A DNA stretch of 64,000 nt, from the NCBI RefSeq assembly GCF_003352185.1, contig NZ_CP029608.1, positions 1,426,001 to 1,490,000 on the forward strand, in the 5' to 3' direction. The DNA is from Pseudomonas kribbensis. GTDB lineage: Bacteria; Pseudomonadota; Gammaproteobacteria; Pseudomonadales; Pseudomonadaceae. Made by a program: the position numbers and the translations under genes. Below the pieces are notes generated by a model, which was not told the origin of the DNA, searched no databases, and saw only the letters and a list, made by a program, of their open reading frames with translations. Shown piece by piece: positions 1 to 18,514 of this stretch (positions within the stretch are counted from its first letter, which is position 1; each line of letters opens with the position of its first letter).

Positions 1-33
1 GCCGTGAAGGCCGCTGCCAAGAAGGCTGACTGA
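1..33 (+). CDS. 3' end of an unidentified gene before the tail sheath
   Basis: The first ten codons read AVKAAAKKAD and then stop, two bases before the sheath start. Only this Lys/Ala-rich tail is in the window, so the product cannot be named. The close spacing suggests it belongs to the same tail operon. In P2-like tail clusters the gene before the sheath is often a fibre or fibre-related gene, but nothing here proves that. Confidence 0.5.
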   Translation, partial: AVKAAAKKAD

Positions 34-35
34 AT

Positions 36-1202
36 ATGGCTGAGGTTCTGAACTTCGAGCACAACGGCATTACCGTCAATGCCACCGAATCCCCCGAGGC
101 CATGGGTGGCCTGGGTGACAACGTCATCGGTCTGGTCGGCACCGCGCCGAAAGCCGATCCGCTGATTCCGCGCAACGCACCGTTTCGCATCAACAGCTTT
201 ACCACCCACGCGCTGCTCGATCCGACCGGCGCGGAAGAGGGCACCCTGTACCACGCGGTTTACCAGATCCTCAAAGTGGTCAAGGTGCCGGTGTACGTGG
301 TGATCGTCGAAGCGGGCGCGACCCCGGCCGACACCGTCAACGCAGTGATCGGCGGCATCGAGCCAGCCACCGGCCGCAAACTCGGTCTGGCGGCACTGGG
401 TAGCGTCCCGGAAGACCTGACCATCATCGGCGCGCCGGGCTTCACCGGCACCAAGGCTGTAGCCAGTGAGTTCGCCTCGTTCGGCAAGCGCATCAAGGCC
501 CGTGTGGTGCTGGACGGCAAGGACGCTTCGGTCGCTGACCAGGTGACTTACAGCCAGGAACTGGGCGGCGCCGACCTCGGTTTCGACCGTTGTCTGGTGG
601 TGCACAACATGCCCGCCGTGTACTCGAAAGCGGCGAAGAAAAACGTCTTCCTCGCGCCATCCAGTCTGGCAATCGCCGCGCTGGCCAAGGTCAAGCAATG
701 GGAAAGCCCGGGCAACCAGGTGACCTACGCCGAAGACGTGTCCCGGGTCGTTGAGTACAACATCCTCGACACCTCCACCGAAGGCGATCTGCTCAACCGC
801 TACGGCGTCAGCTACTACGCCCGCACCATCCTTGGCGGCTTCTCGCTGCTGGGCAACCGCTCGATCACCGGCAAGTTCATCAGCTACGTCGGTCTGGAAG
901 ATGCCATCAGCCGCAAGCTGGTGAAGGCCGGCCAGAAAGCCATGGCCAAGAACCTGACCAAGTCGTTCATGGATCAGGAAGTCAAACGCATCAACGACTG
1001 GCTGCAGACCCTGGTCGCCGACGAAACCATTCCCGGCGGCAGCGTGTATCTGCACCCGGAACTCAACAGCGTCGAGAAGTACAAGAACGGCACCTGGTAC
1101 GTGGTCATCGACTACGGCCGCTACGCGCCGAACGAACACATGGTTTATCAACTCAACGCCCGCGATGAAATCATCGAGCAGTTCCTGGAGGACGTTCTCT
1201 AA
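36..1202 (+). CDS. Contractile tail sheath protein, P2 FI / R-pyocin type
   Basis: 388 residues, the usual size for P2 gpFI and R-pyocin sheaths. The protein forms the outer contractile tube that drives the inner tube through the target envelope. The family is recognised from the N-terminal insertion-domain region, the central VVHNMPAVYSK segment, and the conserved C-terminal strand region with YVVIDYGRYAPNEHM, which forms the inter-subunit mesh in this family. It starts two bases after the previous stop. Its stop overlaps the next start (TAATG), so sheath and tube are translationally coupled. The gene order sheath-tube-chaperone-tape measure-U-X-D is that of P2. Confidence 0.93.
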   Translation: MAEVLNFEHNGITVNATESPEAMGGLGDNVIGLVGTAPKADPLIPRNAPFRINSFTTHALLDPTGAEEGTLYHAVYQILKVVKVPVYVVIVEAGATPADTVNAVIGGIEPATGRKLGLAALGSVPEDLTIIGAPGFTGTKAVASEFASFGKRIKARVVLDGKDASVADQVTYSQELGGADLGFDRCLVVHNMPAVYSKAAKKNVFLAPSSLAIAALAKVKQWESPGNQVTYAEDVSRVVEYNILDTSTEGDLLNRYGVSYYARTILGGFSLLGNRSITGKFISYVGLEDAISRKLVKAGQKAMAKNLTKSFMDQEVKRINDWLQTLVADETIPGGSVYLHPELNSVEKYKNGTWYVVIDYGRYAPNEHMVYQLNARDEIIEQFLEDVL

Positions 1203-1708
1203 TGTTTACCAACCGCGTAAGACAGGCCATCGCGGCCACCCTGCAAGGCCTGCCGCTGTCGGCGACCGTGGAGGAATTCACTCCGCCGAAAATCGATTTC
1301 GATATGGAAAGCATGGCGGGCGGGCGCTTCATCGTCGAGGAAATGGCCAAGAGTGCCAAGCCGCTGAATGCCACGCTCAAGCTGCAAGGCACCGGCGCTG
1401 AAGTGCTGCTGGCGATGGGCGTGAAACTGGGCGACGACATTCTGCTGAACGTGCGTGAGGCCGGTCAGGATCAGGACGGCAACACCTGGTTCACCTATCA
1501 CACCATTGGCGGCAAGCTCAAAACCCTGGGTGAAGAAGCAATCAAAATGGGTAGCAAAGCCCTGACGACGCTTGAGTTCTCCTGCCGCACCTACAACCGC
1601 CTGGAAAACGGCATTCCGGTGATCGACATCGACGTGCGTACCCAGAAGTTCGTGCTCAGCGGCGTCGACATCCTTGGTGATGCCCGTCGTGCGGTGCTGA
1701 TGCCGTAA
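1202..1708 (+). CDS. Major tail tube protein, P2 FII type
   Basis: 168 residues, matching P2 gpFII and R-pyocin tubes. It stacks as hexamers to form the rigid inner tube that carries no DNA in a tailocin. The sequence shows the alternating beta-strand pattern of tube proteins, the opening NRVRQAIAATLQG, and a GDDILLNVREAG loop region. It is coupled to the sheath gene by a one-base overlap, fitting the equal stoichiometry of sheath and tube. A perfect 10-bp hairpin follows before the chaperone gene. Confidence 0.92.
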   Translation: MFTNRVRQAIAATLQGLPLSATVEEFTPPKIDFDMESMAGGRFIVEEMAKSAKPLNATLKLQGTGAEVLLAMGVKLGDDILLNVREAGQDQDGNTWFTYHTIGGKLKTLGEEAIKMGSKALTTLEFSCRTYNRLENGIPVIDIDVRTQKFVLSGVDILGDARRAVLMP

Positions 1709-1732
1709 GGCTTTTTGGCGACCGTGCACAAA

Positions 1733-1758: not shown

Positions 1759-1788
1759 ATCTTCAAGAACACCCAAGGAATTCCTTTC

Positions 1789-2498: not shown

Positions 2499-4970
2499 AT
2501 GGCAGACACATCGTTTTCGCTGATGTACGCCGCGCAAAACGGAGGCGCGGGTTCCGGTTTGTCGGCAGGGGGATCGGCCACGGACAGCCTGATCAAACCG
2601 CTGTCCGAACTGAAAGAGGCGCTGCTCACGGCCAGTCTCGACATCCGCAGTCTGGTGCGTGAACAGATCAAGCTCGGCGCCGTTGTCCTGGGGCTGAACA
2701 CAGCCCTGGCATCGTTCAAGGCGCCCGTTGTAACCGCCGCGCCGGCGGCAGGCGGCGAGAGCAAGTCTAAGCTCAAGGCCGAGATTGAACAGCGCTCGCC
2801 TCCGGCCTACCTGCAATCGGACATGGCCCTGAAAACCGCCATGGCCCAGCTCAGGCAGGTGCAAGGCCTGAGTGGCGACCTCGACACGCTGTCGAAAGCC
2901 AACCTCAAACTGGCCTCCGACAAACGGGTTGCCGGCAGTGGGGCGACGGTCGTGGATCTGGTGCAGGTCGAAGTTGCGGCTGGCAGATCGGGGATTGGCG
3001 CGGGTCTCAAGGGGGCCGACAAGGAACACGCGCTGCTGGACTTTGCCCAGGATGCAGCGGTCAACGCGTCGGCGTTCGGCATCAGCCTGAAGTCGGCCGG
3101 TGAGATGCTGTCGGCCTGGCAAGTCTCGATGAAACTGGATCGTGCTCAAGGTCAGTTGCTGGCCGATGCGACTCAGCATCTGGGCAACAGCGGACTGAAT
3201 GCGACGGCCGCCGATATCGGCTCGGTGGTGCAGCAATCAGGCGAGTCGGCCGTTGCAGCGGGGATCCTGCCCGAGCAGTTGGCAGCACTGTCAGCCGCGT
3301 TGCTCAACGCTGACGTCGACAAGGCCGGTGCCGGGGCGGCGGTGAAAAGCATCAGCGCAGCCCTGGGCAAAGGCAGCCAGGGCTCGGCGGCCGAGCAGTC
3401 GGCGTGGAAGGCGTTGGGGCTTGATCCCGGCAAGCTGACTGAAAACGTCCCGGACAACCTTGTCAAAGCGCTGGCGGCATTGAAGCAACAACCGGCAGAA
3501 CAGCAAACGGCGCTGATCAAGACACTTTTCAGTGGCGACGACGGTGTACGCAAACTGCTGGCGAAGCCCGAAGACCTGCAAAAAGCGTTTTCGCTGGTCG
3601 CTCCGGCCAAACTGGAAGGAACGTCGACGCTTGTGTCCTCGCAAGCGACCCAGAGCAGCCTCGCATCGCCCTACAAAGGTGAGGGTGGCGTGCGCCAATG
3701 GATGGGAAAACCCGGCGAGGCACAGACGCCGCTTTCATTGCTCAAGCCCAATGATCCACTGACACCGGCTTACAGCGGCGCGATTGAACGCAGCGCCGAG
3801 CCTGCGGGTAAAGACCCTCAGCGAAGCTGGAACGCGTTCGATGCCAGTCTCAATCGTCTGGTCACGGCGTTGGCACCTGATGCAGCCGGCACGCTGGATT
3901 CGCTGACGAATATGACCAACGGCGTGGCCGATATGGCTGAAGCCTATCCAAAAACCTCGACGGCACTGGCCGTTGCGGGCGCTGGATTGTCGGCCATCGT
4001 GGTGGCGGTGATGGCCAAGGCATTCGGCAATTTCACTGACAAACTGCTCAAGGGCGTGGCTTCAAAATTGCCGTTTGGTCTTGGCGGTTTGATTGCCGAT
4101 ATTGAAGACCCGAAAACAAAAAAAACGTCTGCCGGAAATGGCGTGGGCCATGATTGTTGCTGCTACTGCAAACCGCTGGGCGGCGGGACGGGCGGCAAGC
4201 TCAAGCCTCGTCGGGCAAGCATCACGCCTCGAGTCGGACGTGGAGCAGTCGGTGGGGTGACCCCCCGGGCACCACGGATCATTGCACCGTCGGCACCGCT
4301 TGCACCCTCGGCACCGCTTGCACCGCCGACACGATCCGTTGGCACGTACTGGTCGGGAACCATGACGGCATTTGCAGGCTCATCAGCCGTCAGCTCCGCA
4401 CCGGCCGCTCCACTGTCCGGTTCCTACGCCAGGGCAGGCAGACTGCTTGCCAGACGGGCACCACCACTGCGGTTGCTCAGCGCCGGATATGAAATGGTCA
4501 CCGGCGTCATGAAGGGCGATAAACGTGCCGTCGTGTCCTCCGGTGCATCGTTAGCCGGGTCGTCTGCCGGAGCCGCTGTCGGTGCTGCATTGGGCACGTT
4601 GATTCTGCCGGGTTTGGGCACCATGGTTGGCGGGTGGCTTGGGAGCATGGCGGGCGGGGCCATCGGTGAGTCCCTGGGCGACAAGCTGGGGAAACAAGTC
4701 GATCGTCTCGGCTCTCCTGCACAGGTCAGTAAAGACCTCATCGCGACCTCGGCGACCTCCACGATCCCCGCGGCACTTGCAACCACAGCCGCCAGCCAGC
4801 CTGTCACGCTCAATTCCACCATCAACATCAATGGTCAGGATCAGGGCAGTGCCCAGGCACTGGCCAATCTGGTGGTGCAAACAACGATGAGTCAGTTGGG
4901 CCAGATCATGCCGACCAACCCTCTCGCCACACGACGTGACGCTGCCCTGACCGATGGAGTCGCCACATGA
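2499..4970 (+). CDS. Tail tape measure protein, long form (P2 gpT-like)
   Basis: 823 residues. It sets tail length and helps form the pore at the membrane. Residues about 110-370 carry a TP901-type tape measure core rich in Ala and Leu helices. A hydrophobic helix lies near 485-505, and a Gly-zipper membrane-like segment near 683-725. Between them is an unusual cysteine group, CCCYC at residues 553-557, followed by a basic, Pro/Ala-rich linker in which APLAPSAPLAP repeats. GGAGT-like AAGGAGT precedes the start at seven bases. The 3' end overlaps the gpU gene by four bases (ATGA). It is much longer than the tape measure of the second module (523 residues). Confidence 0.88.
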   Translation: MADTSFSLMYAAQNGGAGSGLSAGGSATDSLIKPLSELKEALLTASLDIRSLVREQIKLGAVVLGLNTALASFKAPVVTAAPAAGGESKSKLKAEIEQRSPPAYLQSDMALKTAMAQLRQVQGLSGDLDTLSKANLKLASDKRVAGSGATVVDLVQVEVAAGRSGIGAGLKGADKEHALLDFAQDAAVNASAFGISLKSAGEMLSAWQVSMKLDRAQGQLLADATQHLGNSGLNATAADIGSVVQQSGESAVAAGILPEQLAALSAALLNADVDKAGAGAAVKSISAALGKGSQGSAAEQSAWKALGLDPGKLTENVPDNLVKALAALKQQPAEQQTALIKTLFSGDDGVRKLLAKPEDLQKAFSLVAPAKLEGTSTLVSSQATQSSLASPYKGEGGVRQWMGKPGEAQTPLSLLKPNDPLTPAYSGAIERSAEPAGKDPQRSWNAFDASLNRLVTALAPDAAGTLDSLTNMTNGVADMAEAYPKTSTALAVAGAGLSAIVVAVMAKAFGNFTDKLLKGVASKLPFGLGGLIADIEDPKTKKTSAGNGVGHDCCCYCKPLGGGTGGKLKPRRASITPRVGRGAVGGVTPRAPRIIAPSAPLAPSAPLAPPTRSVGTYWSGTMTAFAGSSAVSSAPAAPLSGSYARAGRLLARRAPPLRLLSAGYEMVTGVMKGDKRAVVSSGASLAGSSAGAAVGAALGTLILPGLGTMVGGWLGSMAGGAIGESLGDKLGKQVDRLGSPAQVSKDLIATSATSTIPAALATTAASQPVTLNSTININGQDQGSAQALANLVVQTTMSQLGQIMPTNPLATRRDAALTDGVAT

Positions 4971-5350
4971 AACAACAAATGGCACTGGGCAGTTTCATCT
5001 TTGGCCTGTCACGCGGTTTTGCCTACAGCAGTTTTCTGCGCAAGTCCGATGGCGGCTGGACGGAGCTGCAGATCCTCACCAGCAAACCCAAGTCGCACCA
5101 GACGGGACAGAAGCCTGAAACCCTGACCATCACCGGCAAATCGATGTACGCGGTGGCCATGGATCGGCTGGATGAACTGCGGGCGCTGCAAGCCCTTCGT
5201 GTACCGCTGCCGCTGATTGATGGCATCGGCCGCAACTGGGGTTTGTGGCGGATTACCACGGTTCAGGAAACCCAGACCTGCATCATCGATGATGGTACGG
5301 CGATGGTGGTCGACTGGACCCTCGAATTGGCGGAGTTCAACAATGCGTAA
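4967..5350 (+). CDS. Tail protein, P2 gpU family
   Basis: 127 residues. gpU in P2 is needed for tail completion. The family pattern is visible as MALGSFIFGLSR at the start, a TGQKPETLTITG segment and a C-terminal VDWTLELAEFNNA. It begins inside the tape measure stop (ATGA) and overlaps the next start by eight bases, so it is translated as part of the same chain. It belongs to the first, P2-like module, between the tape measure and X, exactly as in P2 and R-pyocin clusters. Confidence 0.85.
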   Translation: MKQQMALGSFIFGLSRGFAYSSFLRKSDGGWTELQILTSKPKSHQTGQKPETLTITGKSMYAVAMDRLDELRALQALRVPLPLIDGIGRNWGLWRITTVQETQTCIIDDGTAMVVDWTLELAEFNNA

Positions 5351-5555
5351 GGTACGAAGCGTGGCCGGTGATTCGGTGAATCTGTTGTTGTACCGCGAAA
5401 CCGGTCGCAGCGATGACTCCGCCGAAGAAGCCCTGTGGCAGCTCAATCCGACGCTGGCCGAACACGGCCCCGTCTTGCCTGCGGACGTCTGGGTGGTGTT
5501 GCCGGAACTCGATTCGAAGCCGGCGGCGATCAAGCCGGTTTCAGCCTGGGATTAA
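5343..5555 (+). CDS. Tail protein, P2 gpX family (small LysM-like)
   Basis: 70 residues. The gene starts inside the end of the gpU gene. The protein has the gpX layout: VRSVAGDSVNLLLYRETGR, then EEALWQLNPTLAEHG, then LPADVWVVLPEL. This is a compact LysM-like fold that in P2 contributes to the baseplate centre or tail tip. It is short, but its position between U and D and its conserved motif make it a real gene. The strong AAGGAGG ribosome-binding site of the next gene lies at its 3' end. Confidence 0.85.
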   Translation: MRKVRSVAGDSVNLLLYRETGRSDDSAEEALWQLNPTLAEHGPVLPADVWVVLPELDSKPAAIKPVSAWD

Positions 5556-5564: not shown

Positions 5565-6593
5565 ATGGCACAGGGTTTCACGCCTGTGGTGGAAATCTAC
5601 GGGACCAACGCGGCGCTGCTCAATCAGCGCCTGATCAGTTGGGAGCACGTCGATGCTGCCGGTACCGAGTCTGATCAGCTGACGCTGACGGTCGATCTGG
5701 AAGGGCTTGAAGGGCTGCCTGATCTCGGGGGGAGAATCGGTCTTCGGGTCGGCTATCGCGAATCGGAAATTGTCGATAAGGGCCTGTTCAAAGTGACGCG
5801 CCTGACACCGACCCTGTTCCCGTTTCGCCTGACACTGGTCGCCACGGCCGCGCCGTTCAGCGCCGCCGACGAGACCGGCTTCAAACAGCGACGTACGGCC
5901 AGCCATGGTCCGACCACCCTGGGTGCGCTGTTTGGTGAACTGGTTTCGCCTCATGGATTTTCTCCACGGGTGGCGTCCGATCTGGCGCTGATCAGGATCG
6001 ATCACATCGACCAGTCCAACGAAACCGACATGGGTTTCCTGACGCGCCTGGCGAAGAAGTACAAGGTGATCGCCAAACCGGTGGGCGAGCTGTATGTGCT
6101 GGCGCGCCCCGGTCAGACCAAATCGCTGTCGGGCAAGTCCTTGGCGGACGTGCGTCTGTCGGTGACCGAGAACAACCGCCCCGGCGATCACGCTTTCATC
6201 AGCGCCACCCTTGAAGAGACCGCCCGGGCACAGGCCAAAGGCTGCAAGACCCGGTTCCTGGATAAGGCCATCGGTGTGATGCGTGAGGTGCTGACCGGTG
6301 AGGCGCCCTACAAGACCGTGCGTCAGATCTGCCAGAGCGAGGAGGAGGCCAAGGCTATCGGAGAGGGCGAAGTGCGCAAGATGCTGCGGGAAAAGTACAA
6401 GGTGAAGATCACCTGCCCGGGCAATCCGCTGCTGTCTGCCGAGGGCCTGCTGTTGCTCGATGAGACCTGGCCGGACTTCCTGCGTGGTCGCTGGTCGATC
6501 GAAAAGGTCACTGCCAGCGGCAAGCGCGAAGAAAGTTATCGCTGCGTCATCGAGGCCACCAGCCTCGATCCGAAAGCAGACGCCAAAGACTGA
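5565..6593 (+). CDS. Late control protein D / baseplate hub (P2 gpD-like)
   Basis: 342 residues. In P2-like tails gpD is a tail protein equivalent to the T4 gp27 hub, linking tube and spike; its name comes from the 'late control' label. AAGGAGG sits five bases before the ATG. The N-terminal half has the beta-rich hub domain (EIYGTNAALLNQRLISWEHV) with MGFLTRLAKKYKVIAKPVG in the middle. The C-terminal half has a region ending RWSIEKVTASGK and YRCVIEATS. It is the last gene of the first tail module; 57 bases then separate it from the second module. Confidence 0.9.
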   Translation: MAQGFTPVVEIYGTNAALLNQRLISWEHVDAAGTESDQLTLTVDLEGLEGLPDLGGRIGLRVGYRESEIVDKGLFKVTRLTPTLFPFRLTLVATAAPFSAADETGFKQRRTASHGPTTLGALFGELVSPHGFSPRVASDLALIRIDHIDQSNETDMGFLTRLAKKYKVIAKPVGELYVLARPGQTKSLSGKSLADVRLSVTENNRPGDHAFISATLEETARAQAKGCKTRFLDKAIGVMREVLTGEAPYKTVRQICQSEEEAKAIGEGEVRKMLREKYKVKITCPGNPLLSAEGLLLLDETWPDFLRGRWSIEKVTASGKREESYRCVIEATSLDPKADAKD

Positions 6594-6650: not shown

Positions 6651-7235
6651 ATGAAGATCTCCCCGATCCTCACGCAGCTGCGTGCGCAATGCCCAAGCCT
6701 TGCCGGCCATATCGCGACAGGTGTCGACCTGGCGCTGCTGCAAGGCAACCCGAATCTGCCGACACCGTCGGCCCATGTATTACCGCTGGCCGATCTGGCC
6801 AGTGCCAGTACCGCACAAAACTCCACCAGCCAGCCGATCCGCGACCGCTTCGAAATCATCCTGGTGCTCGACGCCACGGACGCCACAAAAGCGCTGGATC
6901 TGTTGCACGACCTGCGCGCCGAACTGTGGCGTGCGCTGGTGGGTTTCAAACCCGGTTCGGAATACAGCGCCATCGTTTATGACGGCGGCGAAACGGTCTC
7001 GATCAACAGCAGCCGCATGTTCTACCGGCTGCGCTTTTTTGCCGAGTTCCAGCTGGGCCGCAATCTGCCAAGTCAGCCTGCGGAGAGTTGGCACGAACGC
7101 GAACTGGACGGTTTGTCGTCCTTTACCGGGGTCACCGTGAGGGTCGATGCGATCGACCCGGCCGACCCCAACCTGAAACACCCGGGCCCTGACGGGCGCG
7201 TGGAAATGACTTTCTCTGGAGACGTAACCCCATGA
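6651..7235 (+). CDS. Tail terminator-like protein, Mu gp37/SfV type
   Basis: 194 residues. It begins the second, Mu/SfV-like tail module. The family includes Mu gp37-type proteins that cap the tail tube or act in tail completion. The sequence opens MKISPILTQLRAQCPSLAGH, then has a terminator-like alpha/beta core (RFEIILVLDATDATKALDLL) and ends with strands such as RVEMTFSGDV. Its stop overlaps the next start by ATGA. The exact role is inferred from position and general fold rather than from a catalytic motif. Confidence 0.75.
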   Translation: MKISPILTQLRAQCPSLAGHIATGVDLALLQGNPNLPTPSAHVLPLADLASASTAQNSTSQPIRDRFEIILVLDATDATKALDLLHDLRAELWRALVGFKPGSEYSAIVYDGGETVSINSSRMFYRLRFFAEFQLGRNLPSQPAESWHERELDGLSSFTGVTVRVDAIDPADPNLKHPGPDGRVEMTFSGDVTP

Positions 7236-8907: not shown

Positions 8908-8932
8908 TCGGCTCGTTTGACACTGTGATTCG

Positions 8933-8955
8933 GCCCACCTCGCGTGGGCTTTTTA
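8933..8955 (+). terminator. Intrinsic terminator/attenuator between sheath and tube genes
   Basis: GCCCAC, loop CTCGC, GTGGGC and then TTTTTATTT. The stem is short but all pairs are G-C or A-T Watson-Crick and the T-tract is good, so partial termination is likely. It sits inside the structural operon. Confidence 0.75.
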
Positions 8956-9745: not shown

Positions 9746-11316
9746 TGGCCAATACACAGATAAACACGATCCAGCAAAACATTCAGACCACGGCCGGCAT
9801 GCTCGAGGTGATGCAAGGTCTGCAGAAAACGGCGACCGAGATGAAGGGTGTTCGCGCCAAGGTCGCAGGGTTCAAGAAAAGCCTGGAAAGCAGTGGACTC
9901 AAGCCGCTGGATCTGTCCGGTTTTGTTTCCGGGGGCGGCTTGCTCAAGCCGTTTCAGGACGGCTTGAAAAAGGCGATCAAGGCCGAAGACGAACTGGCGA
10001 ACAAGAGCAAGAAGCTCAAGGCCCCGGCGCTGGCAAAGGATGCCGTTATACCCAAGCCGTTGCCCAGGCCCGCGACCGCGCGACTTCCCGCGCCGGTGAA
10101 GGGTGAAACCTCTACCAACCTCGCGAAGTTCAACGTTTCGCTCGACAACATCTCGCTGAAGATCGGCCAGGCGCTGTTACCGGCGGTCAAGGGTCTGGTG
10201 ACGGCGCTGGTGCCGGTCATGACCACGGTCGGCAAGTTTGTCGCCGAACATCCTCAACTGGTTGAAGGACTGGCAGCGGCAGCAGTGGCGTTCACCGTGG
10301 TGACCACGGCCGCTGCCGGACTCAGTGCGGTGTTGACACTGCTGGCCTCGCCGATCGGCTTGTTTGCCGCCGGAGCCGCGCTGGCGGCCGGTTTGATTGT
10401 CGCCAACTGGAAACCGCTTTCGGCTTTCTTCGTCCGGCTGTGGCAACAGATCGCCCCGGTGGTACTGCCGATGGCGAACTTTTTCAGAACCCTGTTCGAC
10501 TTCACCCCGCTGGGCATGGTGATCAACAACTGGGGACCGGTCAGCACGTTCTTCGCAGCTCTGTGGAACGTGCTCAAGGCAGTGGCCGCGCCGGTTATCG
10601 ATTTCTATACAACGCTGTTTGCCTACTCACCGCAGGCGCTGATTCTGAAAAACTGGCAACCATTGGTTGGCCTGTTTGCTTCGATCTGGGATTTGCTGCG
10701 AGCGGTGTCGGTGCCGATCTCAGCGTTTATTCAAGACGTGGTGGACTCCATCAGTCTGTCGGTGGTGGAGCTGTATGCGGTGATTAGCGAGCAGTTGGGC
10801 TGGTCGCCGCTGGAAACGATCATCGAGGCCTGGGGATCGGTGACGGTGTGGATTCAGAAGTGGAGTGACAAGTTCTACGATGCGCTGGCGCCGATCCGGG
10901 AGTTTTTCAATGGCGGTCTTGGCACACTCGCTGCCGAAGCGTCGGCCAAGGTCGATGTTCTCACCCGTGCTCAGCTGAAAACCAATGCCGAAGGCAAGGG
11001 CGAGTGGGCTCCGGGTTTTTTTGGCTCTGATGCCGACTCCACGCCCGGCGTTTCGGTGCCGGAAGGCGCATTGACGCAGAACTCCAGCTCGTTGACGCAG
11101 AATTCCAGCTCGCTGACGCAATCCTCCAGCAACCTGATCCAGAAAAGCGCCGCCAACAACCGCACGCAACTCGAAGGCGGCCTGACGGTCCGCTTCGAAA
11201 ACGCGCCGGCGGGGCTGCGCACCGATCAACCGCAAACCAATCAACCGGGGCTGGCGCTCAGTTCGCGCATCGGCTATCGCTCGCTATCGGCAGGAGGTTC
11301 CAATGAACTGGCGTGA
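9745..11316 (+). CDS. Tail tape measure protein, short form (Mu/SfV type)
   Basis: 523 residues. The ATG overlapping the TGA of the frameshifted chaperone is preferred to the GTG one codon earlier. A coiled N-terminus (INTIQQNIQTTAGMLEVMQG) leads to a hydrophobic region near residues 160-215, then three NW-x-P-type motifs (NWKPLSAFF, NWGPVSTFF, NWQPLVGLF) spaced about 41 residues apart with a fourth degenerate copy (AWGSVTVWI). These repeats are common in tape measures and may act as length units. Near the C-terminus four 7-residue units (LTQNSSS and variants) occur from residue 443. It is shorter than the module-1 tape measure, so a shorter tail is expected. Confidence 0.88.
   Translation: MANTQINTIQQNIQTTAGMLEVMQGLQKTATEMKGVRAKVAGFKKSLESSGLKPLDLSGFVSGGGLLKPFQDGLKKAIKAEDELANKSKKLKAPALAKDAVIPKPLPRPATARLPAPVKGETSTNLAKFNVSLDNISLKIGQALLPAVKGLVTALVPVMTTVGKFVAEHPQLVEGLAAAAVAFTVVTTAAAGLSAVLTLLASPIGLFAAGAALAAGLIVANWKPLSAFFVRLWQQIAPVVLPMANFFRTLFDFTPLGMVINNWGPVSTFFAALWNVLKAVAAPVIDFYTTLFAYSPQALILKNWQPLVGLFASIWDLLRAVSVPISAFIQDVVDSISLSVVELYAVISEQLGWSPLETIIEAWGSVTVWIQKWSDKFYDALAPIREFFNGGLGTLAAEASAKVDVLTRAQLKTNAEGKGEWAPGFFGSDADSTPGVSVPEGALTQNSSSLTQNSSSLTQSSSNLIQKSAANNRTQLEGGLTVRFENAPAGLRTDQPQTNQPGLALSSRIGYRSLSAGGSNELA
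11071..11154 (+). repeat. Four 21-bp tandem units in the tape measure gene
   Basis: Units encode LTQNSSS, LTQNSSS, LTQSSSN and LIQKSAA. The first two DNA units differ by one silent base; the later two are diverged. Whole-codon length keeps the frame. Confidence 0.85.
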
Positions 11317-12538
11317 CCGTTTGTTGCCGGCATCCTTTCGCGGTGTCGGTTTCTGGATCGACCAGGCGAAAACCCCGGTCGGTCGCAAGGGACAGTTGCA
11401 TGAGTATCCGCAGCGCGACCTGCCGTTTTTCGAGGATCTCGGCCAGCAGGCCAAGACCCACGACCTGACGGCGTTCATCATCGGTGCCGATTGCCTGGAG
11501 CAGCGCGACAAGCTGCTCCAGGCTTTGGAGCAGGGCAGCGGCGAGCTGGTGCATCCGTGGCTGGGCCGCTTGCAGGTCAAGGTCGGCGAGTGCGACATGA
11601 CCCACACCCGCCAGGACGGCGGGATGGTGACCTTCACACTGAAGTTCTACCCGGACCGGCCGCTGCCGTTTCCGACGGCGACGGTCAGCACGCAGAAAGT
11701 TCTGCTGATCAAGGCCGACGGTTTGCTCGGCTCGGCGGTGGCGCGCTTCGAGCAGGCGATGACCCTGATCAAGGCCGCGCGGATCGGCATCGCCAATCTG
11801 CGCAACAGCCTCACCGGCGTGTATGACGTGATCAAGGAGCAGCTCAAGCCGCTGATCGCGCAATACAAGCAGATCACCGAACTGGTCAGGGCCGTCAAGG
11901 AACTGCCCAAGGAGGTGGCGGCGGAGTTCAAGGGCTTGCTCGGCGATATCAAGGAGCTGAAGGCATTCGCGAAGGAGGGCTACCGTGGCGTGATTGCCGA
12001 CGTGTCCCAACAGATCGAAGCCATCCGCAAGGCCGACGCACCGAAAATCACCACCGGCATGGATACTAATGCCGCTGCGCAAGCCATGGCCAACCTGGTG
12101 CAGGACACACTGATCGTCAAGGTTGCGCAGTGGGTTGCCTCAATGCCGGTGGCGTCGACGCCGGTAAAACTGTCGTCGACGCCTTCGCTGGACCAACAGT
12201 CGAAACAGCCGGTCAGCCGTCAGGAAGTGCCGGTCACCGATGATTTGCAAGCGTTGCAAAAAGAGCTGATCGAAGCGCTGCAAAAGGCCCAGGACAAGGC
12301 CGATCCCGCGCACTACCAGGCCATCGCCGATGTGAAGGAAGCGCTGATCGCGCACCTCAAGGCTGTGGCTTCGTCCGGTGTGCGGCTGGTGAGCAAAACC
12401 TTCCAGGAAACCTTTCCGGCGCTGGTGGTGGCCTACAAGCAGTTTGGCGACGCCACTCGGGTGACCGAGGTCATTCAGCGCAACGGTCTGTCTCATCCGG
12501 GTTATTCACCCAACGAAGTCAAGGTTTCCAGGGAGTGA
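11303..12538 (+). CDS. Tail protein with DNA-circulation N-terminal domain (Mu gpN-like)
   Basis: 411 residues. AGGAGG precedes the ATG by five bases, and the start lies inside the end of the tape measure gene. The N-terminal 130 residues (LLPASFRGVGFWIDQAK, ELVHPWLGRLQVKVGECDM) match the domain called DNA circularisation N, found in Mu gpN; in a tail cluster it is a baseplate or tail protein and the DNA role is only a family name. The middle is a long Lys-rich helical region and the C-terminus is helical. It sits between tape measure and hub as in Mu. Confidence 0.85.
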   Translation: MNWRDRLLPASFRGVGFWIDQAKTPVGRKGQLHEYPQRDLPFFEDLGQQAKTHDLTAFIIGADCLEQRDKLLQALEQGSGELVHPWLGRLQVKVGECDMTHTRQDGGMVTFTLKFYPDRPLPFPTATVSTQKVLLIKADGLLGSAVARFEQAMTLIKAARIGIANLRNSLTGVYDVIKEQLKPLIAQYKQITELVRAVKELPKEVAAEFKGLLGDIKELKAFAKEGYRGVIADVSQQIEAIRKADAPKITTGMDTNAAAQAMANLVQDTLIVKVAQWVASMPVASTPVKLSSTPSLDQQSKQPVSRQEVPVTDDLQALQKELIEALQKAQDKADPAHYQAIADVKEALIAHLKAVASSGVRLVSKTFQETFPALVVAYKQFGDATRVTEVIQRNGLSHPGYSPNEVKVSRE

Positions 12539-12541
12539 GTC

Positions 12542-13585
12542 ATGAACGAGACTGACAACCGCGTCACGCTGACCGTCGGCGACATGGAATACGGCGGCTG
12601 GAAAAGCGTGGAGATCTCCGCGGACCTGGAGCGCCAGTTCCGCACCTTCAAACTCGACATCACCTGGCAATGGCCGGGGCAGACCGTGGATCAGCGGATC
12701 AAGGCCGGCGACCCGTGCGAAGTGCGGATCGGCCAGGATCTGGTGCTCACCGGTTATGTGTTCAAGGCCCCGATCAGTTACGACGGGCGACAGATCAGCC
12801 TGAGCATCGAGGGCAGCTCCAAGACCCAGGATTTGGTGGATTGTGCGGCGCGAAACAACCCTGGCCAATGGCAGGATCAATCGCTGTTGAACATCGTCCA
12901 GGCCCTGGCCATGGAGTACGCGTTGAGGGTGGTCAACGAAATTCCCGAGACCGCACGGCTGAGCAAACACACGATCGTCCCGGGTGAAACGGTGTTTCAG
13001 TCGATCGACCGTCTGCTCTCGCTGTACCGGGTGTTTTCCACCGATGACGCCGAAGGCCGGCTGGTGCTTGCCAAACCCGGCAGCGGCGGCCGCGCCAGCG
13101 ATGCACTGGAGCTGGGCAAGAACATTCTCTCGGCCAATGCGCCGATGGATTTCAGCCAGGTGTTTTCCGAATACCGGGTGATCGGCCAGCAGAAGGGCAA
13201 CGACAAGAAGAGCGGGGCGGCGGCCAGCGAAGTGGAATCGACGGCGGCCGACCTGAGTTTCAAACGCCGGCGTACCACGATCATCAACGAAGGCTCGCAG
13301 CTGACGTTCGAACTGGCCCAGCAACGGGCCCAATGGGAGAGCGCGACGCGCATGGGCCGGGCGCTGACCACCACGTATCAGGTGCAGGGCTGGCGTCAGT
13401 CCAACGGTGACCTTTGGCGTCACAACACCTTGGTGCGTGTCAAGGATCCGGTGCTCGGATTCGATGAAGACATGCTGATCTCCAAGGTGACGTATTCGCT
13501 GTCGGCGCAAGGTTCGGTGACCACCCTGCAAGTGGCGCCACCGCATACCTTCGACGCGAACCCGACTCCCCCGAAAAAGACCTGA
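12542..13585 (+). CDS. Baseplate hub protein (Mu gp44 / gpP-like)
   Basis: 347 residues. The N-terminus VTLTVGDMEYGGWKSVEISADL and the GYVFKAPISYDGRQISLSIEG segment are typical of Mu gp44, whose trimer is the baseplate hub equivalent to T4 gp27 and P2 gpD. The later DTLVRVKDPVLG-like strand region (NTLVRVKDPVLGFDEDMLIS) closes the domain. It is followed by the spike gene after 29 bases. Together with that gene it forms the central piercing device of the second tail. Confidence 0.88.
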   Translation: MNETDNRVTLTVGDMEYGGWKSVEISADLERQFRTFKLDITWQWPGQTVDQRIKAGDPCEVRIGQDLVLTGYVFKAPISYDGRQISLSIEGSSKTQDLVDCAARNNPGQWQDQSLLNIVQALAMEYALRVVNEIPETARLSKHTIVPGETVFQSIDRLLSLYRVFSTDDAEGRLVLAKPGSGGRASDALELGKNILSANAPMDFSQVFSEYRVIGQQKGNDKKSGAAASEVESTAADLSFKRRRTTIINEGSQLTFELAQQRAQWESATRMGRALTTTYQVQGWRQSNGDLWRHNTLVRVKDPVLGFDEDMLISKVTYSLSAQGSVTTLQVAPPHTFDANPTPPKKT

Positions 13586-13614: not shown

Positions 13615-14124
13615 ATGAGCCTACTGACACGCCTGCTGGCGCGCGGCACTGTCGTGCTCGCCAGTTCGGCCTCCAAGCTGCAATCGCTGCAAATGCGCCT
13701 CACCGCCGGTGAAGTGAACGACGACATGGAGCACTTCGAGCCCTACGGCTTCACCAGCCATCCGCTGGCCGGCGCCGAGGGTGTCGTCACGTTCCTCGGC
13801 GGTGACCGTTCCCACGCCATCGCCCTGGTGGTCGCTGACCGCCGTTATCGCCTGCAATCGCTGGCGGCCGGCGAGGTGGCGATCTACACCGACGAAGGCG
13901 ACAAGATCCACTTCAAGCGCGGGCGGATCATCGATATCGAAACCGCCACGCTCAACATCCGCGCCAGCACGGCGGTGAACTTCGACACGCCGGTGATCAA
14001 CCAGACGGGCAAGATCGTTTCCAATGGCGATCAGGTGGCCGGCGGTATCAGCCAGATCAAGCACGTGCATGGCGGCGTACAGGGCGGCAGCGGTCAGACC
14101 GGCGTGCCGGCGGGAGGTCAGTGA
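13615..14124 (+). CDS. Baseplate spike protein (Mu gp45-like)
   Basis: 169 residues. An OB-fold N-terminal region is followed by strand repeats (GDKIHFKRGRIIDIETATL, LNIRASTAVNFDTPVINQ) that would form the trimeric beta-helix. The tip contains IKHVHGGVQGGSGQTG, the His-x-His motif that in P2 gpV and Mu gp45 spikes binds an iron ion at the apex. This points to a needle able to pierce the outer membrane. It overlaps the next gene by ATGA. Confidence 0.9.
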   Translation: MSLLTRLLARGTVVLASSASKLQSLQMRLTAGEVNDDMEHFEPYGFTSHPLAGAEGVVTFLGGDRSHAIALVVADRRYRLQSLAAGEVAIYTDEGDKIHFKRGRIIDIETATLNIRASTAVNFDTPVINQTGKIVSNGDQVAGGISQIKHVHGGVQGGSGQTGVPAGGQ

Positions 14125-14522
14125 TGCTCTTCAGTCAAAACCTCCACGCCGCGCTGACCCGCTCGGTGCTGATCAGCCTGTTCACCTGGCGCCGCGCGGC
14201 CGACGACGATGCCCTCGACGACGAGGAGCGTTATGGCTGGTGGGGTGACACTTTTCCTACCGTGGCCAATGACCGCATCGGTTCGCGGCTGTGGCTGCTA
14301 CGTCGGGTCAAGCTGACCCGACAGACCCAGATGGACGCCGAGTTCTATGCCCGCGAAGCCTTGCAGTGGCTGATCGATGACGGCCATTGCAGCGCCATCG
14401 ACATCATCAGCGAACGCCTCGACGCCCAGCGGCTAAACCTGCGCACGGTCCTGACCCTGGCCGACGGCGAGCGCCTGGACATCAACCCTGAAAACAGTTG
14501 GCAGGTGATCTATGCCGTTTGA
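14121..14522 (+). CDS. Baseplate wedge protein, Mu gp46 (gp25-like)
   Basis: 133 residues. The start is LFSQNLHAALTRSVLISLF after Met and the middle includes WWGDTFPTVANDRIGSRLWL, the marker of Mu gp46 proteins, which play the wedge role of T4 gp25. Both ends overlap neighbours: four bases with the spike gene and eleven with the J-like gene, so the baseplate proteins are made in a linked series. Confidence 0.87.
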   Translation: MMLFSQNLHAALTRSVLISLFTWRRAADDDALDDEERYGWWGDTFPTVANDRIGSRLWLLRRVKLTRQTQMDAEFYAREALQWLIDDGHCSAIDIISERLDAQRLNLRTVLTLADGERLDINPENSWQVIYAV

Positions 14523-15555
14523 AACCCCTTCGCTGCCGGTGCTGATCAAACGCACCCAAAGCGACCTGGCCGGCGATTCGCTGCGCCAGTCCGATGCACA
14601 AGTCCTGGCCCGCACCCTTGGCGGTGCGGTCTACGGACTTTATGGCTATCTCGATTGGATCGCCGAGCAGATCCTGCCCGACAAGGCCGATGAATCGACC
14701 CTGGAGCGGATTGCTGCGCTGCGCTTGAATCAGCCGCGAAAATCCGCGCAGGTGGCCACTGGCAGCGTCAGCTTCAATGCCAGCGCCGGGGCGGTGCTGG
14801 ATGTCGATACGTTGCTGCAATCGAATGACGGTCGAACCTACCGGGTCACCGCTGCGCAAACGACCGGCAACGGCGTCAACAGCGCCACCATTGCGGCCCT
14901 GGATGCCGGCAGCCAGGGCAATGCCGACGCCGGTCTGACACTGGTACCGGTGCAACCGGTTCAGGGCATCGACGGCAGCAGCTTCAAGGTCCTGGAACCA
15001 GGGCTGACCGGCGGCATCGCCCGGGAAAGCCTTGAATCCTTGCGCTCACGGGTGATCCGTTCCTACCGCCTCATTCCTCACGGCGGTTCGGCTCAGGATT
15101 ACGAGACGTGGGCGCTGGAGTGCCCGGGAATTACCCGGGCATGGTGTCGTGGCAACTTCCTGGGGCCGGGCACGGTCGGCGTATTCGTCATGCGCGACGA
15201 CGATGCACAGCCCATTCCCAATGACGAGCAACTGGCGCAAGTGCTGGCTTACATCGAACAGTTGCGACCGGTGACGGCGGATGTGAGCGTGATGGCGCCG
15301 GTGCAGGTGCTGGTCAACTACAAGTTGCGCATCACGCCCGACACCAGTGCCGTCCGTGCCGCCATCGAAACGCAGTTGCGCGATTTGCATAACCGTGAGG
15401 CCGGGTTGGGCGAGACGCTGTTGCTCAGCCATATCGGCGAAGCGATCAGCAGTGCGACCGGTGAAACGGATCACACTCTTGTTTCGCCTTCGAGCAATGT
15501 CACGGCAGCCAGTAACCAGCTCCTGACATTCGGGGGGTGCGAATGGCTGTCTTGA
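14512..15555 (+). CDS. Baseplate J-like protein (Mu gp47)
   Basis: 347 residues, with the baseplate_J pattern: N-terminal helices LIKRTQSDLAGDSLRQSDAQ, a middle strand part (AAQTTGNGVNSATIAALDAG), then GGIARESLESLRSRVIRSYR and the conserved QDYETWALECPGITRAWC motif. It is the wedge protein equivalent to T4 gp6 and P2 gpJ. It starts within the gp46 gene and ends within the gp48 gene. Confidence 0.92.
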   Translation: MPFETPSLPVLIKRTQSDLAGDSLRQSDAQVLARTLGGAVYGLYGYLDWIAEQILPDKADESTLERIAALRLNQPRKSAQVATGSVSFNASAGAVLDVDTLLQSNDGRTYRVTAAQTTGNGVNSATIAALDAGSQGNADAGLTLVPVQPVQGIDGSSFKVLEPGLTGGIARESLESLRSRVIRSYRLIPHGGSAQDYETWALECPGITRAWCRGNFLGPGTVGVFVMRDDDAQPIPNDEQLAQVLAYIEQLRPVTADVSVMAPVQVLVNYKLRITPDTSAVRAAIETQLRDLHNREAGLGETLLLSHIGEAISSATGETDHTLVSPSSNVTAASNQLLTFGGCEWLS

Positions 15556-16142
15556 GAAGCGCCGAACAATACCGCAATCAATTGCGCAGCCTGCTGCCCG
15601 GCGGACCCGCCTGGGAGCCGGAGCGAGTACCGGAACTCGATCAGGTGCTGGAAGGCATCGCCCAGGAACTGGCACGCCTCGATGCCCGCGCAGTTGATTT
15701 GCTCAACGAGATGGACCCTGCCGGTGTCAGCGAGCTGGTGCCGGACTGGGAAGCCGTCATGAACTTGCCGGACCCCTGCCTCGGCGCCACCCCACTTTAT
15801 GACGATCGGCGATTGGCCGTGCGCCGGCGCCTGCTGGCGGTAGGCAGTCAGACGGCAGCCTATTTCGTCGAGGTCGCACGCACCCAGGGGTATCCACAGG
15901 CATCGGTCTCCGAACTCCGGGTTCCGCGCATGGGGCGCTCGCGATTTGGCCAGGCGCATTTCGGCACCTGGAGAGCGCAATTCATGTGGATCCTCAATAC
16001 CGGCGGACGCCTGTCCAGCGGGCGCCGCTTTGGTGCCAGTTACTGGGGGGAGCGTTTCGGAATGAATCCAGGCTCGGCCCTGGAATGCCTCATTCACCGC
16101 AGCACACCGGCTCATACCCAGGTGTACATCAACTATGACTAA
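15543..16142 (+). CDS. Baseplate wedge protein, Mu gp48 (YmfQ/DUF2313)
   Basis: 199 residues. The start MAVLRSAEQYRNQLRSLLPG is that of the YmfQ family, with the LLPxGPAW motif seen as LLPGGPAW, then MNLPDPCL and the C-terminal LECLIHRSTPAHTQVYINYD. Family members are tail proteins equivalent to Mu gp48 and P2 gpI that connect wedges to fibres. An in-frame GTG six bases earlier is possible but lies before no better ribosome site. The gene overlaps gp47 by thirteen bases and lies ten bases before the fibre gene. Confidence 0.87.
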   Translation: MAVLRSAEQYRNQLRSLLPGGPAWEPERVPELDQVLEGIAQELARLDARAVDLLNEMDPAGVSELVPDWEAVMNLPDPCLGATPLYDDRRLAVRRRLLAVGSQTAAYFVEVARTQGYPQASVSELRVPRMGRSRFGQAHFGTWRAQFMWILNTGGRLSSGRRFGASYWGERFGMNPGSALECLIHRSTPAHTQVYINYD

Positions 16143-16152: not shown

Positions 16153-17313
16153 ATGGATTATCCAAAGAGTGTGCCCAGCGTCGGGCTGGTCAATGGCAAG
16201 TTTGTCGATGAAAACCCGGTGGCCGGTACGCCAGGATCGTTGATCCCGGCGGTGTGGGGGAACTCCGTCACCGAAGAGTTGCTGGGGGTCATCAAGGCCG
16301 GTGCACTGGTTCCTGACGAGACCAACGTCGGCCAGTTGCTCGTGGCCATCCGCAAGATCAATCAGGCGGGCCTCATCGATTTCGCCCTCGACACCGGCAC
16401 GGCCAATGCCTACGCCGCCACTTACTCGCCAGTTCCGACCACACTGGTCGACGGTATGGTGCTGCGTTTCAAGGCACTCAATACCAACACTGGCGCCAGT
16501 ACTTTTTCCGTGGCCGGCTCAATCGCCAAACCCATCGTCGGCCTCGACCATACTCCCCTGCGTTCCGGTGATATCGTCGCAACGGGCGATGCCTGGGTGC
16601 AATGGAACAGTTCTGTGGGAAGCGGAGCCTGGGTACTGATTGCGAGTACCGGTGTGGCGCGGCAACTGGGGGCCGATGTCGGCGACGTGAAAACGGTCGC
16701 TACCGTTGATGCTCCAAGTGGCTGGCTCAAATGCAGCGGACAACCTGTATCGCGGACTCAGTACGCCAATCTGTTCGCCGCTATCGGTACCCGGTTTGGC
16801 GCCGGGGATGGCACCAATACCTTCAACGTGCCGGATCTGCGGGGTGAATTTGTCCGGGGTCTGGACGATGGTCGCGGCGTCGATCCAGGTCGAGTACTGG
16901 GCAGCAAGCAGGCAGGGCAGAACGCCTCGCACATTCACGATGTGTCGGCTGCGGCTGCCGGCAACCACGCCCACGCGGCGCGCACGGATGCTGCCGGCTT
17001 GCACTCGCACGGTGGGGCTGTGGTCGGTGGTGGCGCGTTCAACATTGATCTGGTCATGGGCGGGCAGGGTGTCGTCGTCGGCGGCAGCACGGCAGGCTCC
17101 GTCATGGGTTCCAGCTCGGGACCTTCGGTCAACCGCAACTTCACGACCAACGCTCCGGCGCACTCCCACGGCATCGTTGCGGACGGCAACCACGCGCACA
17201 ACGTGGGTGTGGATGCTGCGGGTCAACACACGCACACAATGTCTGTCGCTGCATCGGGTGGCAATGAGGCGCGTCCGATGAACACGGCCCTGTTGTTTGT
17301 CATCAAGTATTGA
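16153..17313 (+). CDS. Tail fibre with collar-type receptor-binding tip
   Basis: 386 residues. The N-terminus MDYPKSVPSVGLVNGKF is that of Pseudomonas tailocin fibres and should bind the baseplate. A phage tail collar domain lies at about residues 175-240 (DAPSGWLKCSGQPVSRTQYA, FNVPDLRGEFVRGLD). The C-terminal third has six His-x-His motifs (HIH, HAH, HSH, HSH, HAH, HTH) and ends GNEARPMNTALLFVIKY. In T4 gp12 and related tips such motifs bind iron along the trimer axis. The protein decides which strains are killed. No fibre-assembly chaperone gene follows, consistent with a collar-tipped short fibre. Confidence 0.9.
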   Translation: MDYPKSVPSVGLVNGKFVDENPVAGTPGSLIPAVWGNSVTEELLGVIKAGALVPDETNVGQLLVAIRKINQAGLIDFALDTGTANAYAATYSPVPTTLVDGMVLRFKALNTNTGASTFSVAGSIAKPIVGLDHTPLRSGDIVATGDAWVQWNSSVGSGAWVLIASTGVARQLGADVGDVKTVATVDAPSGWLKCSGQPVSRTQYANLFAAIGTRFGAGDGTNTFNVPDLRGEFVRGLDDGRGVDPGRVLGSKQAGQNASHIHDVSAAAAGNHAHAARTDAAGLHSHGGAVVGGGAFNIDLVMGGQGVVVGGSTAGSVMGSSSGPSVNRNFTTNAPAHSHGIVADGNHAHNVGVDAAGQHTHTMSVAASGGNEARPMNTALLFVIKY

Positions 17314-17450
17314 GGGTCAATTTCCGGGGAGCCACTGGCGCCCCGGTAAATAGCCCCGGACAGCACCCCTGAAAACTCTGGCAAAGAAGGCTGGCAGGCA
17401 TCAGCCGCCAGCCGTGATTCAATCGGAGCATTCAAGGAGGAATACGCATT

Positions 17451-18017
17451 ATGCAAATAACTGAAAACAACCTTTTGTCCATCATGCCCAACGCTCGCTC
17501 CCAGGCGGGCGTTTTTGTTTCACCGCTCAACGATGCCATGGCGCGTCATCGCATCGATACGCCCAAGCGCGTCGCTGCGTTCCTCGCACAGGTCGGCCAT
17601 GAGTCCGGGCAACTGCGCTACGTGCGCGAACTGGGCGACAACCAGTATCTGAGCAAATACGACACCGGCACGCTGGCCCTGCGTCTGGGCAACACGCCGG
17701 AAGCCGATGGTGACGGACAGAAGTATCGCGGTCGCGGGCTGATCCAGATCACCGGCCGCACCAACTATCGCCAGTGCAGTCTCGGGCTGTTTGGCGATGA
17801 GCGTCTGCTGTCGTTGCCTGAATTGCTCGAGCAACCACAGTGGGCGGCGGAGTCCGCCGCGTGGTTCTGGGAGCAGAACGGTTTGAACGATCTGGCGGAC
17901 CGCGATCAGTTCAACACCATCACCCGTCGAATCAACGGCGGGTTGAACGGCTTGCAGGATCGCCTGGACATCTGGGCGCGGGCGAGGGCGGTGTTATGTC
18001 CATCTCCTGGCGTGTAA
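17451..18017 (+). CDS. GH19 endolysin (chitinase-like lysozyme)
   Basis: 188 residues with AAGGAGG before the ATG. The GH19 fold is shown by FLAQVGHESGQLRYVRELGD (Glu51 the likely general acid), the YRGRGLIQITGRTNY motif, and FNTITRRINGG. It cuts peptidoglycan to release the assembled tail particles from the cell. There is no signal peptide or membrane anchor, so a holin is needed; none is visible in the window. The gene overlaps the spanin gene. The 137 bases before it hold no gene. Confidence 0.9.
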   Translation: MQITENNLLSIMPNARSQAGVFVSPLNDAMARHRIDTPKRVAAFLAQVGHESGQLRYVRELGDNQYLSKYDTGTLALRLGNTPEADGDGQKYRGRGLIQITGRTNYRQCSLGLFGDERLLSLPELLEQPQWAAESAAWFWEQNGLNDLADRDQFNTITRRINGGLNGLQDRLDIWARARAVLCPSPGV

Positions 18018-18514
18018 CCGGTGTTGTATTGCTGGTCCTGGGGGCTGGCGCGTTGACCTGGCAATTTCAGGACTGGCGCTACGGCCGCCAACTGGCCGAG
18101 CAGGCCCGACAGCATGCCGAAACCCTCAACCAACTGACTCAGGCTGCTGCCTCGGCGCAGCAGGCCGAGCAGGACAAGCGCCTGGCCCTGGAGCAACGGC
18201 TCGCGGCCAGTGAGCAAACCCACTATCGAGCACTGAGTGATGCCCAACGTGATCAGGATCGCCTGCGCGATCGTCTTGCCACTGCTGATCTGCGCCTGTC
18301 AGTCCTCATCGACGCAGGCGACGCTGCCCAAGGCTGCGGTGTGCCAGCCGCCTCCGGCGCCGGCGGCGTGGATCATGCAACCGTACGCGCCCGACTTGAC
18401 CCGGCGCATGCTCAACGAATTGTCGCCATCACCGGCGAAGGCGATCGCGGACTGATTGCCCTGCAAGCGTGTCAGGCCTATATCAGAGCGCTGGCGCCTG
18501 CACATTTTGAATGA
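17996..18514 (+). CDS. Inner-membrane spanin (Rz-like)
   Basis: 172 residues. A single N-terminal membrane helix ([18 protein letters not shown]) is followed by a long Gln/Ala/Glu-rich coiled region (LAEQARQHAETLNQLTQAA) and the pattern DQDRLRDRLATADLRLSVLI typical of Rz proteins. It would span the periplasm and bind the outer-membrane lipoprotein spanin to fuse the membranes in the last lysis step. It starts inside the endolysin gene and contains the second spanin gene in another frame. Confidence 0.85.
   Translation: MSISWRVTGVVLLVLGAGALTWQFQDWRYGRQLAEQARQHAETLNQLTQAAASAQQAEQDKRLALEQRLAASEQTHYRALSDAQRDQDRLRDRLATADLRLSVLIDAGDAAQGCGVPAASGAGGVDHATVRARLDPAHAQRIVAITGEGDRGLIALQACQAYIRALAPAHFE
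18240..18455 (+). CDS. Outer-membrane spanin lipoprotein (Rz1-like), nested in Rz
   Basis: 71 residues, entirely inside the Rz-like gene in a different frame, as lambda Rz1 is inside Rz. MPNVIRIACAIVLPLLICAC is a lipoprotein signal with lipobox ICAC; the mature part starts CQSSSTQ and has the short Pro-rich stretch QPPPAPAA usual in o-spanins. The ATG is preferred to the GTG just before it. Nested overlap, lipobox and Pro-rich mature part together make this a confident call. Confidence 0.85.
   Translation: MPNVIRIACAIVLPLLICACQSSSTQATLPKAAVCQPPPAPAAWIMQPYAPDLTRRMLNELSPSPAKAIAD

Follow-up and report, generated by a model that had tools for sequence, protein, structure and literature searches.

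The tailocin cluster described here lies in and beside a 64,000-nucleotide stretch of the Pseudomonas kribbensis genome (6.32 Mb, single contig), hereafter the window (G000:C1:1426001-1490000), and comprises two contractile phage-tail modules in tandem, one set of release genes and, in the left flank, a repressor gene followed by a folded leader RNA and repeated terminators. The flank was added as stretch L003, whose position 18001 is window position 1; positions are those of the window unless marked L003, and every feature lies on the plus strand except mutS. The cluster is bordered by mutS on the left (L003 4668-7250, minus strand) and cinA on the right (18511-19083; PF02464), the site at which Rp3-Rp4 tailocin pairs are found.

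Two tail modules between mutS and cinA

The P2-like module begins in the flank with the baseplate genes V-W-J-I (L003 11363-13942), a fibre of 1089 residues with three Collar domains in tandem, possibly a triplication of the tip region (L003 13943-17212), and the assembly protein of this fibre (L003 17212-17748). It continues in the window with sheath 1 (FI, 388 residues; 36-1202; phrog_23 tail sheath, E 3.8e-70), tube 1 (FII; 1202-1708; PF04985, FII-type), for which a PDB search gave nothing meaningful, chaperone E with its -1 frameshift extension (1747-2492, unextended 1747-2370; PF10109), tape measure 1 (T; 2499-4970), gpU (4967-5350; phrog_76), gpX (5340-5555, start position provisional; PF05489) and the hub gpD (5565-6593; phrog_52), which matches pyocin R2 (6u5h) and has its nearest named relative in P. 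bananamidigenes BW11P2 (92% identity).

The Mu/SfV-like module follows directly, with a Mu-like tail terminator (6651-7235; PF23840), a gp38-like DUF2635 protein (7232-7411), sheath 2 (Mu gpL-like, 498 residues; 7411-8907; phrog_165, E 3.1e-196), tube 2 (8974-9321; PF10618, Mu-type), chaperone 2 with a -1 frameshift extension of its own (9318-9745, unextended 9318-9614; PF10109), tape measure 2 (9742-11316), a gpN-like protein with a DNA circularisation N-terminus (11303-12538), a gpP-like hub (12542-13585), a gp45-like spike (13615-14124; PF06890, PF18946), gp46-, gp47- and gp48-like wedge proteins (14121-16142) and a fibre of 386 residues with a single Collar domain (16153-17313). Open reading frames (ORFs) and family matches thus bear out the gene content, coordinates and order that a preliminary description had given for a P2-like tail followed by a Mu/SfV-like one, each with its own sheath, tube, tape measure and chaperone. 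That description also called the modules unrelated, which holds at the level of blastp, where the two sheaths reach a best E of 0.23 and six of seven counterpart pairs have no match at E <= 0.01, but not throughout: both chaperones match PF10109 and gpJ and gp47 both match phrog_6, and these counterparts are, judged by the shared families, distant homologues.

Both chaperones carry an open -1 extension of 52-54 residues behind a classic -1 slippery heptamer, T_TTT_TTA at ~2322-2328 in chaperone E and T_TTT_TTC at ~9575-9581 in chaperone 2. In all 63 anchored rows of chaperone E the first heptamer reads T_TTT_TTA or T_TTT_TTG (17 of 80 rows were dropped because the start was unanchored or the frame short), and in all 55 rows of chaperone 2 the second reads T_TTT_TTC. 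Both frameshift sites are therefore kept across species, which is what a working set of tail genes would retain.

Release is served by a single set of genes behind the second tail, again as first described: a GH19 endolysin (17451-18017; PF00182) and an Rz-like spanin (17996-18514; PF03245, phrog_2466), with a possible embedded Rz1 lipoprotein (18237-18455) in which we take LLICAC to be the lipobox. The sole holin found (L003 10426-10764; PF16085, E 2.1e-55) sits upstream, left of the window. Between the holin and V lies a phrog_1072 protein (L003 10841-11359), without a match in PDB or Pfam, which we provisionally take, by position alone, to be the R-pyocin collar. The stop codon of the spanin overlaps the start of cinA (18511-18514), and tailocin transcription may extend into cinA-recA.

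No capsid, terminase or integrase was found among the mutS-cinA proteins scanned, and neither the PF05065 capsid family nor the PF03354 terminase family has a match anywhere in the genome. The phrog labels 'head closure' on tube FII and 'portal' on the tail terminator do not denote head genes; Pfam assigns them to the tube and the terminator. The flank supplied the regulator, holin, baseplate genes and fibre that were to be sought there, along with the chaperone of this fibre, and no head genes. With these genes added, each of the two modules appears complete. The cluster thus unites contractile tail genes in both modules, the lack of a head, its own lysis genes and an SOS-type repressor, the genetic attributes of an R-type tailocin. 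Elsewhere in the genome (G000:C1 ~348-371 kb; L214, L215) lies a P2-like prophage that encodes a sheath, tape measure and fibre of its own, together with a primase and a major head protein; this sheath is only 25% identical to sheath 1.

Distribution of the tandem and published relatives

Across 199 genomes of the genus, close relatives of sheath 1 occur in 53 and of sheath 2 in 62. Combining the two match tables by hand places the tandem in 23 of the 199, with both sheaths on one contig and the same strand and sheath 2 ~6.4-8.1 kb past sheath 1; two further genomes have both sheaths, split over two contigs (G035) or far apart (G073). Named loci were collected with gpD as query, 81 qualifying and 80 being kept, and these divide into 52 tandems, 20 P2-only loci that run from gpD to cinA without a second tail, 4 that end too early and 4 others. 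Two single-module loci retain traces of the missing module: in EU982300 (strain Q8r1-96, Mu-like only; its sheath is 90% identical to sheath 2) the last 34 residues of a gpD remain just ahead of the Mu-like module, and the P2-only locus L126 still has part of the Mu-like terminator. Because of these remnants, both look like deletion products of the tandem. Three genomes (L203, L204, L205) have a different P2-like tail ahead of the Mu-like one, with weak gpD matches.

The release genes were followed in the same relatives. In the 23 tandem genomes, the window included, endolysin and spanin lie near cinA in 16 and the spanin alone in 3, the stretch being too short in the other 4; the 52 tandem stretches of the named loci gave no match to the holin, endolysin or spanin of the window. 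L194 and L212 carry a second endolysin/spanin pair upstream of prtR, which may be a sign of an additional tail element in the mutS-prtR interval.

The junction of sheath 2 and tube 2 holds a conserved terminator-like hairpin (8932-8950), of a type shared by 75 of the 93 distinct sheath-tube junctions compared; a 32-row alignment has compensatory changes at 3 pairs, in 12 cells. It is not an invention of tailocins, for in four of the 75 cases (G019, G002, G026, G003) the junction is that of an SfV-like Pseudomonas prophage whose capsid and terminase genes lie immediately upstream. One of the 75 is from a Burkholderia phage, and the hairpin is absent in nine of ten phages examined. It is an inherited trait of Pseudomonas SfV-like tails. 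A scan of viral contigs with the hairpin sequence marked the pattern as that of a general terminator, among the matches listed. The junctions of L117, L108 and L014 have 142-249 nucleotides instead of the short hairpin, and the long junctions inspected contain long inverted repeats that are REP-element-like.

Tailocin loci at mutS-cinA, which the preliminary description had mentioned as known in Pseudomonas, are on record for Pf0-1 and relatives (PMC2647930). In that 2009 report, Mavrodi and colleagues described SfV-like and P2-like tail clusters in the Pf0-1 mutS-cinA region and compared them with the PAO1 R2/F2 locus; both probes were positive by hybridisation in 22 of 34 strains, the holin and endolysin of Pf-5 and Q8r1-96 lysed Escherichia coli, and recombination between prtR-hol and lys was proposed (PMC2647930). 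The clusters of Pf0-1 and of Pf-5, Q8r1-96 and SBW25 resemble the present one in site, with prtR and holin before and endolysin after the tails. The authors classed the SfV-like tail as F-type (flexible), unlike our reading, and their description of the clusters mentions neither a leader RNA nor terminator repeats (PMC2647930).

Two adjacent R-type clusters at mutS-cinA were named Rp3-Rp4 in P. baetica (PMC5909648). Carim et al. (2021) reported 1-4 particles per mutS-cinA cluster, with the proteins of all particles detected by proteomics in the four samples examined, and single baseplate-locus deletions in Pse04 tied Rp3 and Rp4 to the killing of different targets (PMC8319346). In P. protegens CHA0, Vacheron et al. 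(2021) tagged both sheaths in one strain and saw both particles by electron microscopy; as here, its tailocins 1 and 2 are two R-tailocins, each with a tape measure to itself, that share their release, lie between mutS and cinA/recA and come with PrtR, whereas CHA0 has two endolysins and its tailocin 1 is said to be restricted to the protegens group (PMC7815802). The Rp3-Rp4 pairs so described are adjacent at mutS-cinA, P2-like then Mu-like, and do not differ in kind from the present pair, which is known from its genes alone. Synteny and family membership assign the locus, as a putative Rp3 plus Rp4 pair, to this type. P. chlororaphis 30-84 is reportedly (Dorosky, 2017) another such pair.

The cluster very probably functions as one DNA-damage-controlled operon that yields two separate headless contractile particles, P2-like of the Rp3 type and Mu/SfV-like of the Rp4 type, freed by one release set. 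Two particles sharing their release, as the preliminary description had supposed, are supported by the gene arrangement and by the tests in relatives (PMC8319346, PMC7815802); the tandem and its two-particle reading are not new, having been in print since 2009 (PMC2647930). Placement of both modules in one operon and the abundance of single-module clusters, such as the 20 P2-only loci, would also fit two tails that form one mixed particle, or a module that has decayed. We hold this to be very improbable: genes for sheath, tube, chaperone, tape measure, hub, spike, wedge and fibre are present separately in the two modules, the reading frames and the two frameshift sites persist from one species to another, and relatives have yielded both kinds of particle (PMC8319346, PMC7815802). 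A defective prophage resembling a tailocin in appearance only would account for the phage-tail ancestry and for the SfV-like Pseudomonas prophages, with capsid and terminase, whose sheaths are 63-81% identical to sheath 2, but it would hardly explain a cluster without head genes whose site, order and lysis set are kept in many species and whose relatives have been published as active bactericidal particles, and it is likewise very improbable in our estimation.

Leader RNA and terminator repeats ahead of the holin

The flank opens, behind mutS, with a PrtR-like repressor (L003 7461-8195; HTH and S24 domains) carrying GNSM, RVKQLY and LAAGSG, which we take to be self-cleavage motifs. Behind it follow a candidate promoter/operator block with palindromes (L003 8304-8360) and, in the prtR-holin interval, a leader RNA core of ~97 nucleotides (L003 8409-8505, equal to G000:C1:1416409-1416505). 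Four near-identical intrinsic terminators (terminator repeats, TR; L003 ~8617-8655, 9199-9237, 9751-9790 and 10321-10362) flank three small cassette genes, all fibre-assembly-like (L003 8727-9158, 9311-9712 and 9854-10273, the second below the Pfam cut-off), and the holin comes next.

We aligned the core with 30 relatives, which came from tailocins, from phages and from copies elsewhere in genomes. In the resulting three-helix structure 98.1% of cells are paired, and 8 pairs and 35 cells are changed on both sides. None of 500 shuffles reaches any of the five measures, and the covariation score of 0.275 compares with <=0.065 for slid partners, a comparison in which the true version is favoured by the structure having been drawn from the same set. 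RNAalifold, unaided, recovered helices 1 and 2 and predicted a different closing stem in place of helix 3, which is therefore the weakest helix of the core. Shuffled sequences fold less well than the complete leader (z -3.34 for the leader). By the covariation measures, the RNA structure is under selection. Rfam 15 matches nothing in the core, even at E values as high as 1; downstream of it, L003 8537-8644 weakly matches RsmY (21.8 bits, E 0.0018, gathering score 57). A small protein gene, represented by a 36-residue ORF, was rejected, as third codon positions vary least (96/81/39) and stops or indels break the frame in many loci.

The leader was surveyed in 52 clusters (23 tandem, 12 P2-only and 17 Mu-only, from 51 genomes plus EU982300), which are not a random sample; five Mu-only stretches without prtR and holin (L196, L197, L203-L205) were excluded. 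The core and TR are present in all 52, with TR 169-229 nucleotides past the start of the core, and the promoter/operator block with its palindromes precedes the core in the 50 leaders that were aligned (L159 and L195 were omitted owing to length). Clusters without a fibre-assembly cassette have one TR in 36 of 37 cases, and n cassettes go with n+1 TR copies in 12 of 15, the exceptions being L169, L175 and L198. Three fibre-assembly-like genes stand in a row here, each followed by a TR, and 0-3 occur between prtR and holin in relatives; EU982300 carries cargo of another type, a colicin M-like gene close to its holin. Orphan fibre-assembly (Tfa) genes of this kind occur in 11 of the 23 tandem and 4 of the 17 Mu-only clusters but in none of the 12 P2-only ones (15/40 versus 0/12, Fisher two-sided p 0.011, uncorrected for kinship). 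Several clusters with an orphan Tfa gene also have one beside fibre 2, so the orphan, a possible chaperone for fibre 2, is not simply a replacement.

A 311-base leader probe found matches in 123 of the 199 genus genomes, at up to four sites per genome, a count that includes partial matches, some without the core; under stricter filters, a covariance model found the element in 1 of 143 genomes of a class sample, that of P. kribbensis. Phage copies come from 10 records including EU982300, some of them near-identical or duplicate. In PseuP_224, Orimi01, Medea1 and Aurca01 the copy adjoins the immunity region, on the same strand as the operon that follows, a fifth record being unannotated; in Orimi01 the repressor-like neighbour is encoded on the opposite strand. 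Elsewhere, too, the element stands behind genes for S24/CI-type repressors, temperate Pseudomonas phages included. An S24/HTH repressor is the nearest long upstream ORF for 16 of 19 other copies, and a twentieth, at a contig end, could not be tested.

Antitermination as a proposed model of operon control

Gene content and order, conservation, an RNA structure marked by covariation and the positions of the terminators are all observed features of these loci; with repressor, promoter, folded RNA, terminator, holin and tails in this succession, they follow the plan of an antitermination-controlled phage operon. The HK022 put RNA and the lambdoid nut/PL leaders are folded RNAs that lead repressor-controlled early operons, and put lets polymerase run through terminators. 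The likeness to put and nut is one of plan, and the host genus differs. In the present cluster a folded RNA likewise lies in the leader of the operon, which presumably starts upstream of it. We propose that the operator/promoter block just behind the gene of the self-cleaving S24 repressor PrtR would start a transcript beginning with the conserved folded RNA and running into one or several terminators before the holin, and that the RNA would let RNA polymerase pass the TR terminators as HK022 put does, so that the tail operon would be turned on once PrtR lets go.

Antitermination with the help of the RNA, together with the dual tailocin, is in our judgement an evenly balanced proposition, and we suggest only tentatively, in the manner of put, that the RNA itself might do so without a protein. 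Combined with this last suggestion, it is possible, rather than probable, that the TR repeats form a cassette array in which cargo is gained or lost between repeats with the operon intact, an RNA-modified polymerase passing them all. Joined to both, it may also be, with comparable reserve, that temperate Pseudomonas phages use this RNA family for the operons on their repressor side and that it was retained when tails were tamed, the loss of PrtR alone sufficing without PrtN, AlpA or Q.

Several points weigh against this account. Promoter use, termination at TR, read-through and direct action of the RNA are all steps that we infer; scans for consensus promoters did not rise above chance (2 found versus 3.5 expected, and 0 versus 3.4); and the T run of TR is short and then followed by GG. 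The phages examined have no terminator close behind the element, so that the link between element and terminator holds in tailocins and not in every copy, 3 of the 19 other copies lack an S24 repressor as the nearest long upstream ORF, and the annotation of phage PseuP_224 places a small hypothetical protein on the leader stretch. PF11112 proteins do occur elsewhere in the cluster-bearing genomes G011, G016 and G019, and searches with PF11112, PF06530 and PF03589 would miss an antiterminator from outside the known families.

The folded RNA might instead be a separate small RNA, lambda 6S- or RsmY-like, that ends at TR, with the promoter of the tail operon behind. TR would make a good end for an RNA of ~295 nucleotides and stays folded in the predicted structure, and the RsmY match points the same way, but that match is far under the gathering score and lies outside the conserved core. 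Moreover, in the 37 clusters whose last TR lies <130 nucleotides from the holin, the stretch between conserves only the TR repeat end and the ribosome-binding site, and no conserved promoter was found in it, while the phage copies present the same core in a leader without a terminator close behind; we consider a small RNA rather unlikely. A protein antiterminator, AlpA- or Q-like and perhaps of a new family or from a distant gene, could also load at the promoter, leaving the RNA auxiliary or otherwise employed. There is a precedent in P. aeruginosa, where AlpA at the alpB promoter makes polymerase bypass an intrinsic terminator before the lysis operon (PMC7969949). As here, alpBCDE is a lysis operon behind a promoter and a terminator, and its output hinges on bypass; it differs in acting through the protein AlpA, with no RNA leader in the account given (PMC7969949). 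The P. kribbensis genome has no PF11112 protein, and so lacks the mark of a PrtN-activated pyocin operon. We take PF11112 to span AlpA as well as PrtN. PF11112, PF06530 and PF03589 found no match in any of six cluster-bearing genomes (G000, G002, G004, G006, G010, G017), which had been picked because they were PF11112-free, and the structure of the RNA is itself under selection, so that a protein antiterminator seems unlikely to us. Action of the RNA itself is the simplest reading.

According to a review of the field, plant-associated Pseudomonas have prtR only, not prtN, and the regulation of such clusters is unclear (PMC10598620); a covarying RNA in all 52 clusters, with a terminator behind it, offers a concrete test for this prtR-only regulation. 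The tandem pair alone, already known, would matter little, and what looks new is the folded leader RNA common to tailocin clusters and Pseudomonas phages. Should the RNA act with no protein, it would extend RNA antitermination beyond the coliphages in which put is known, and would provide a simple SOS-inducible expression part.

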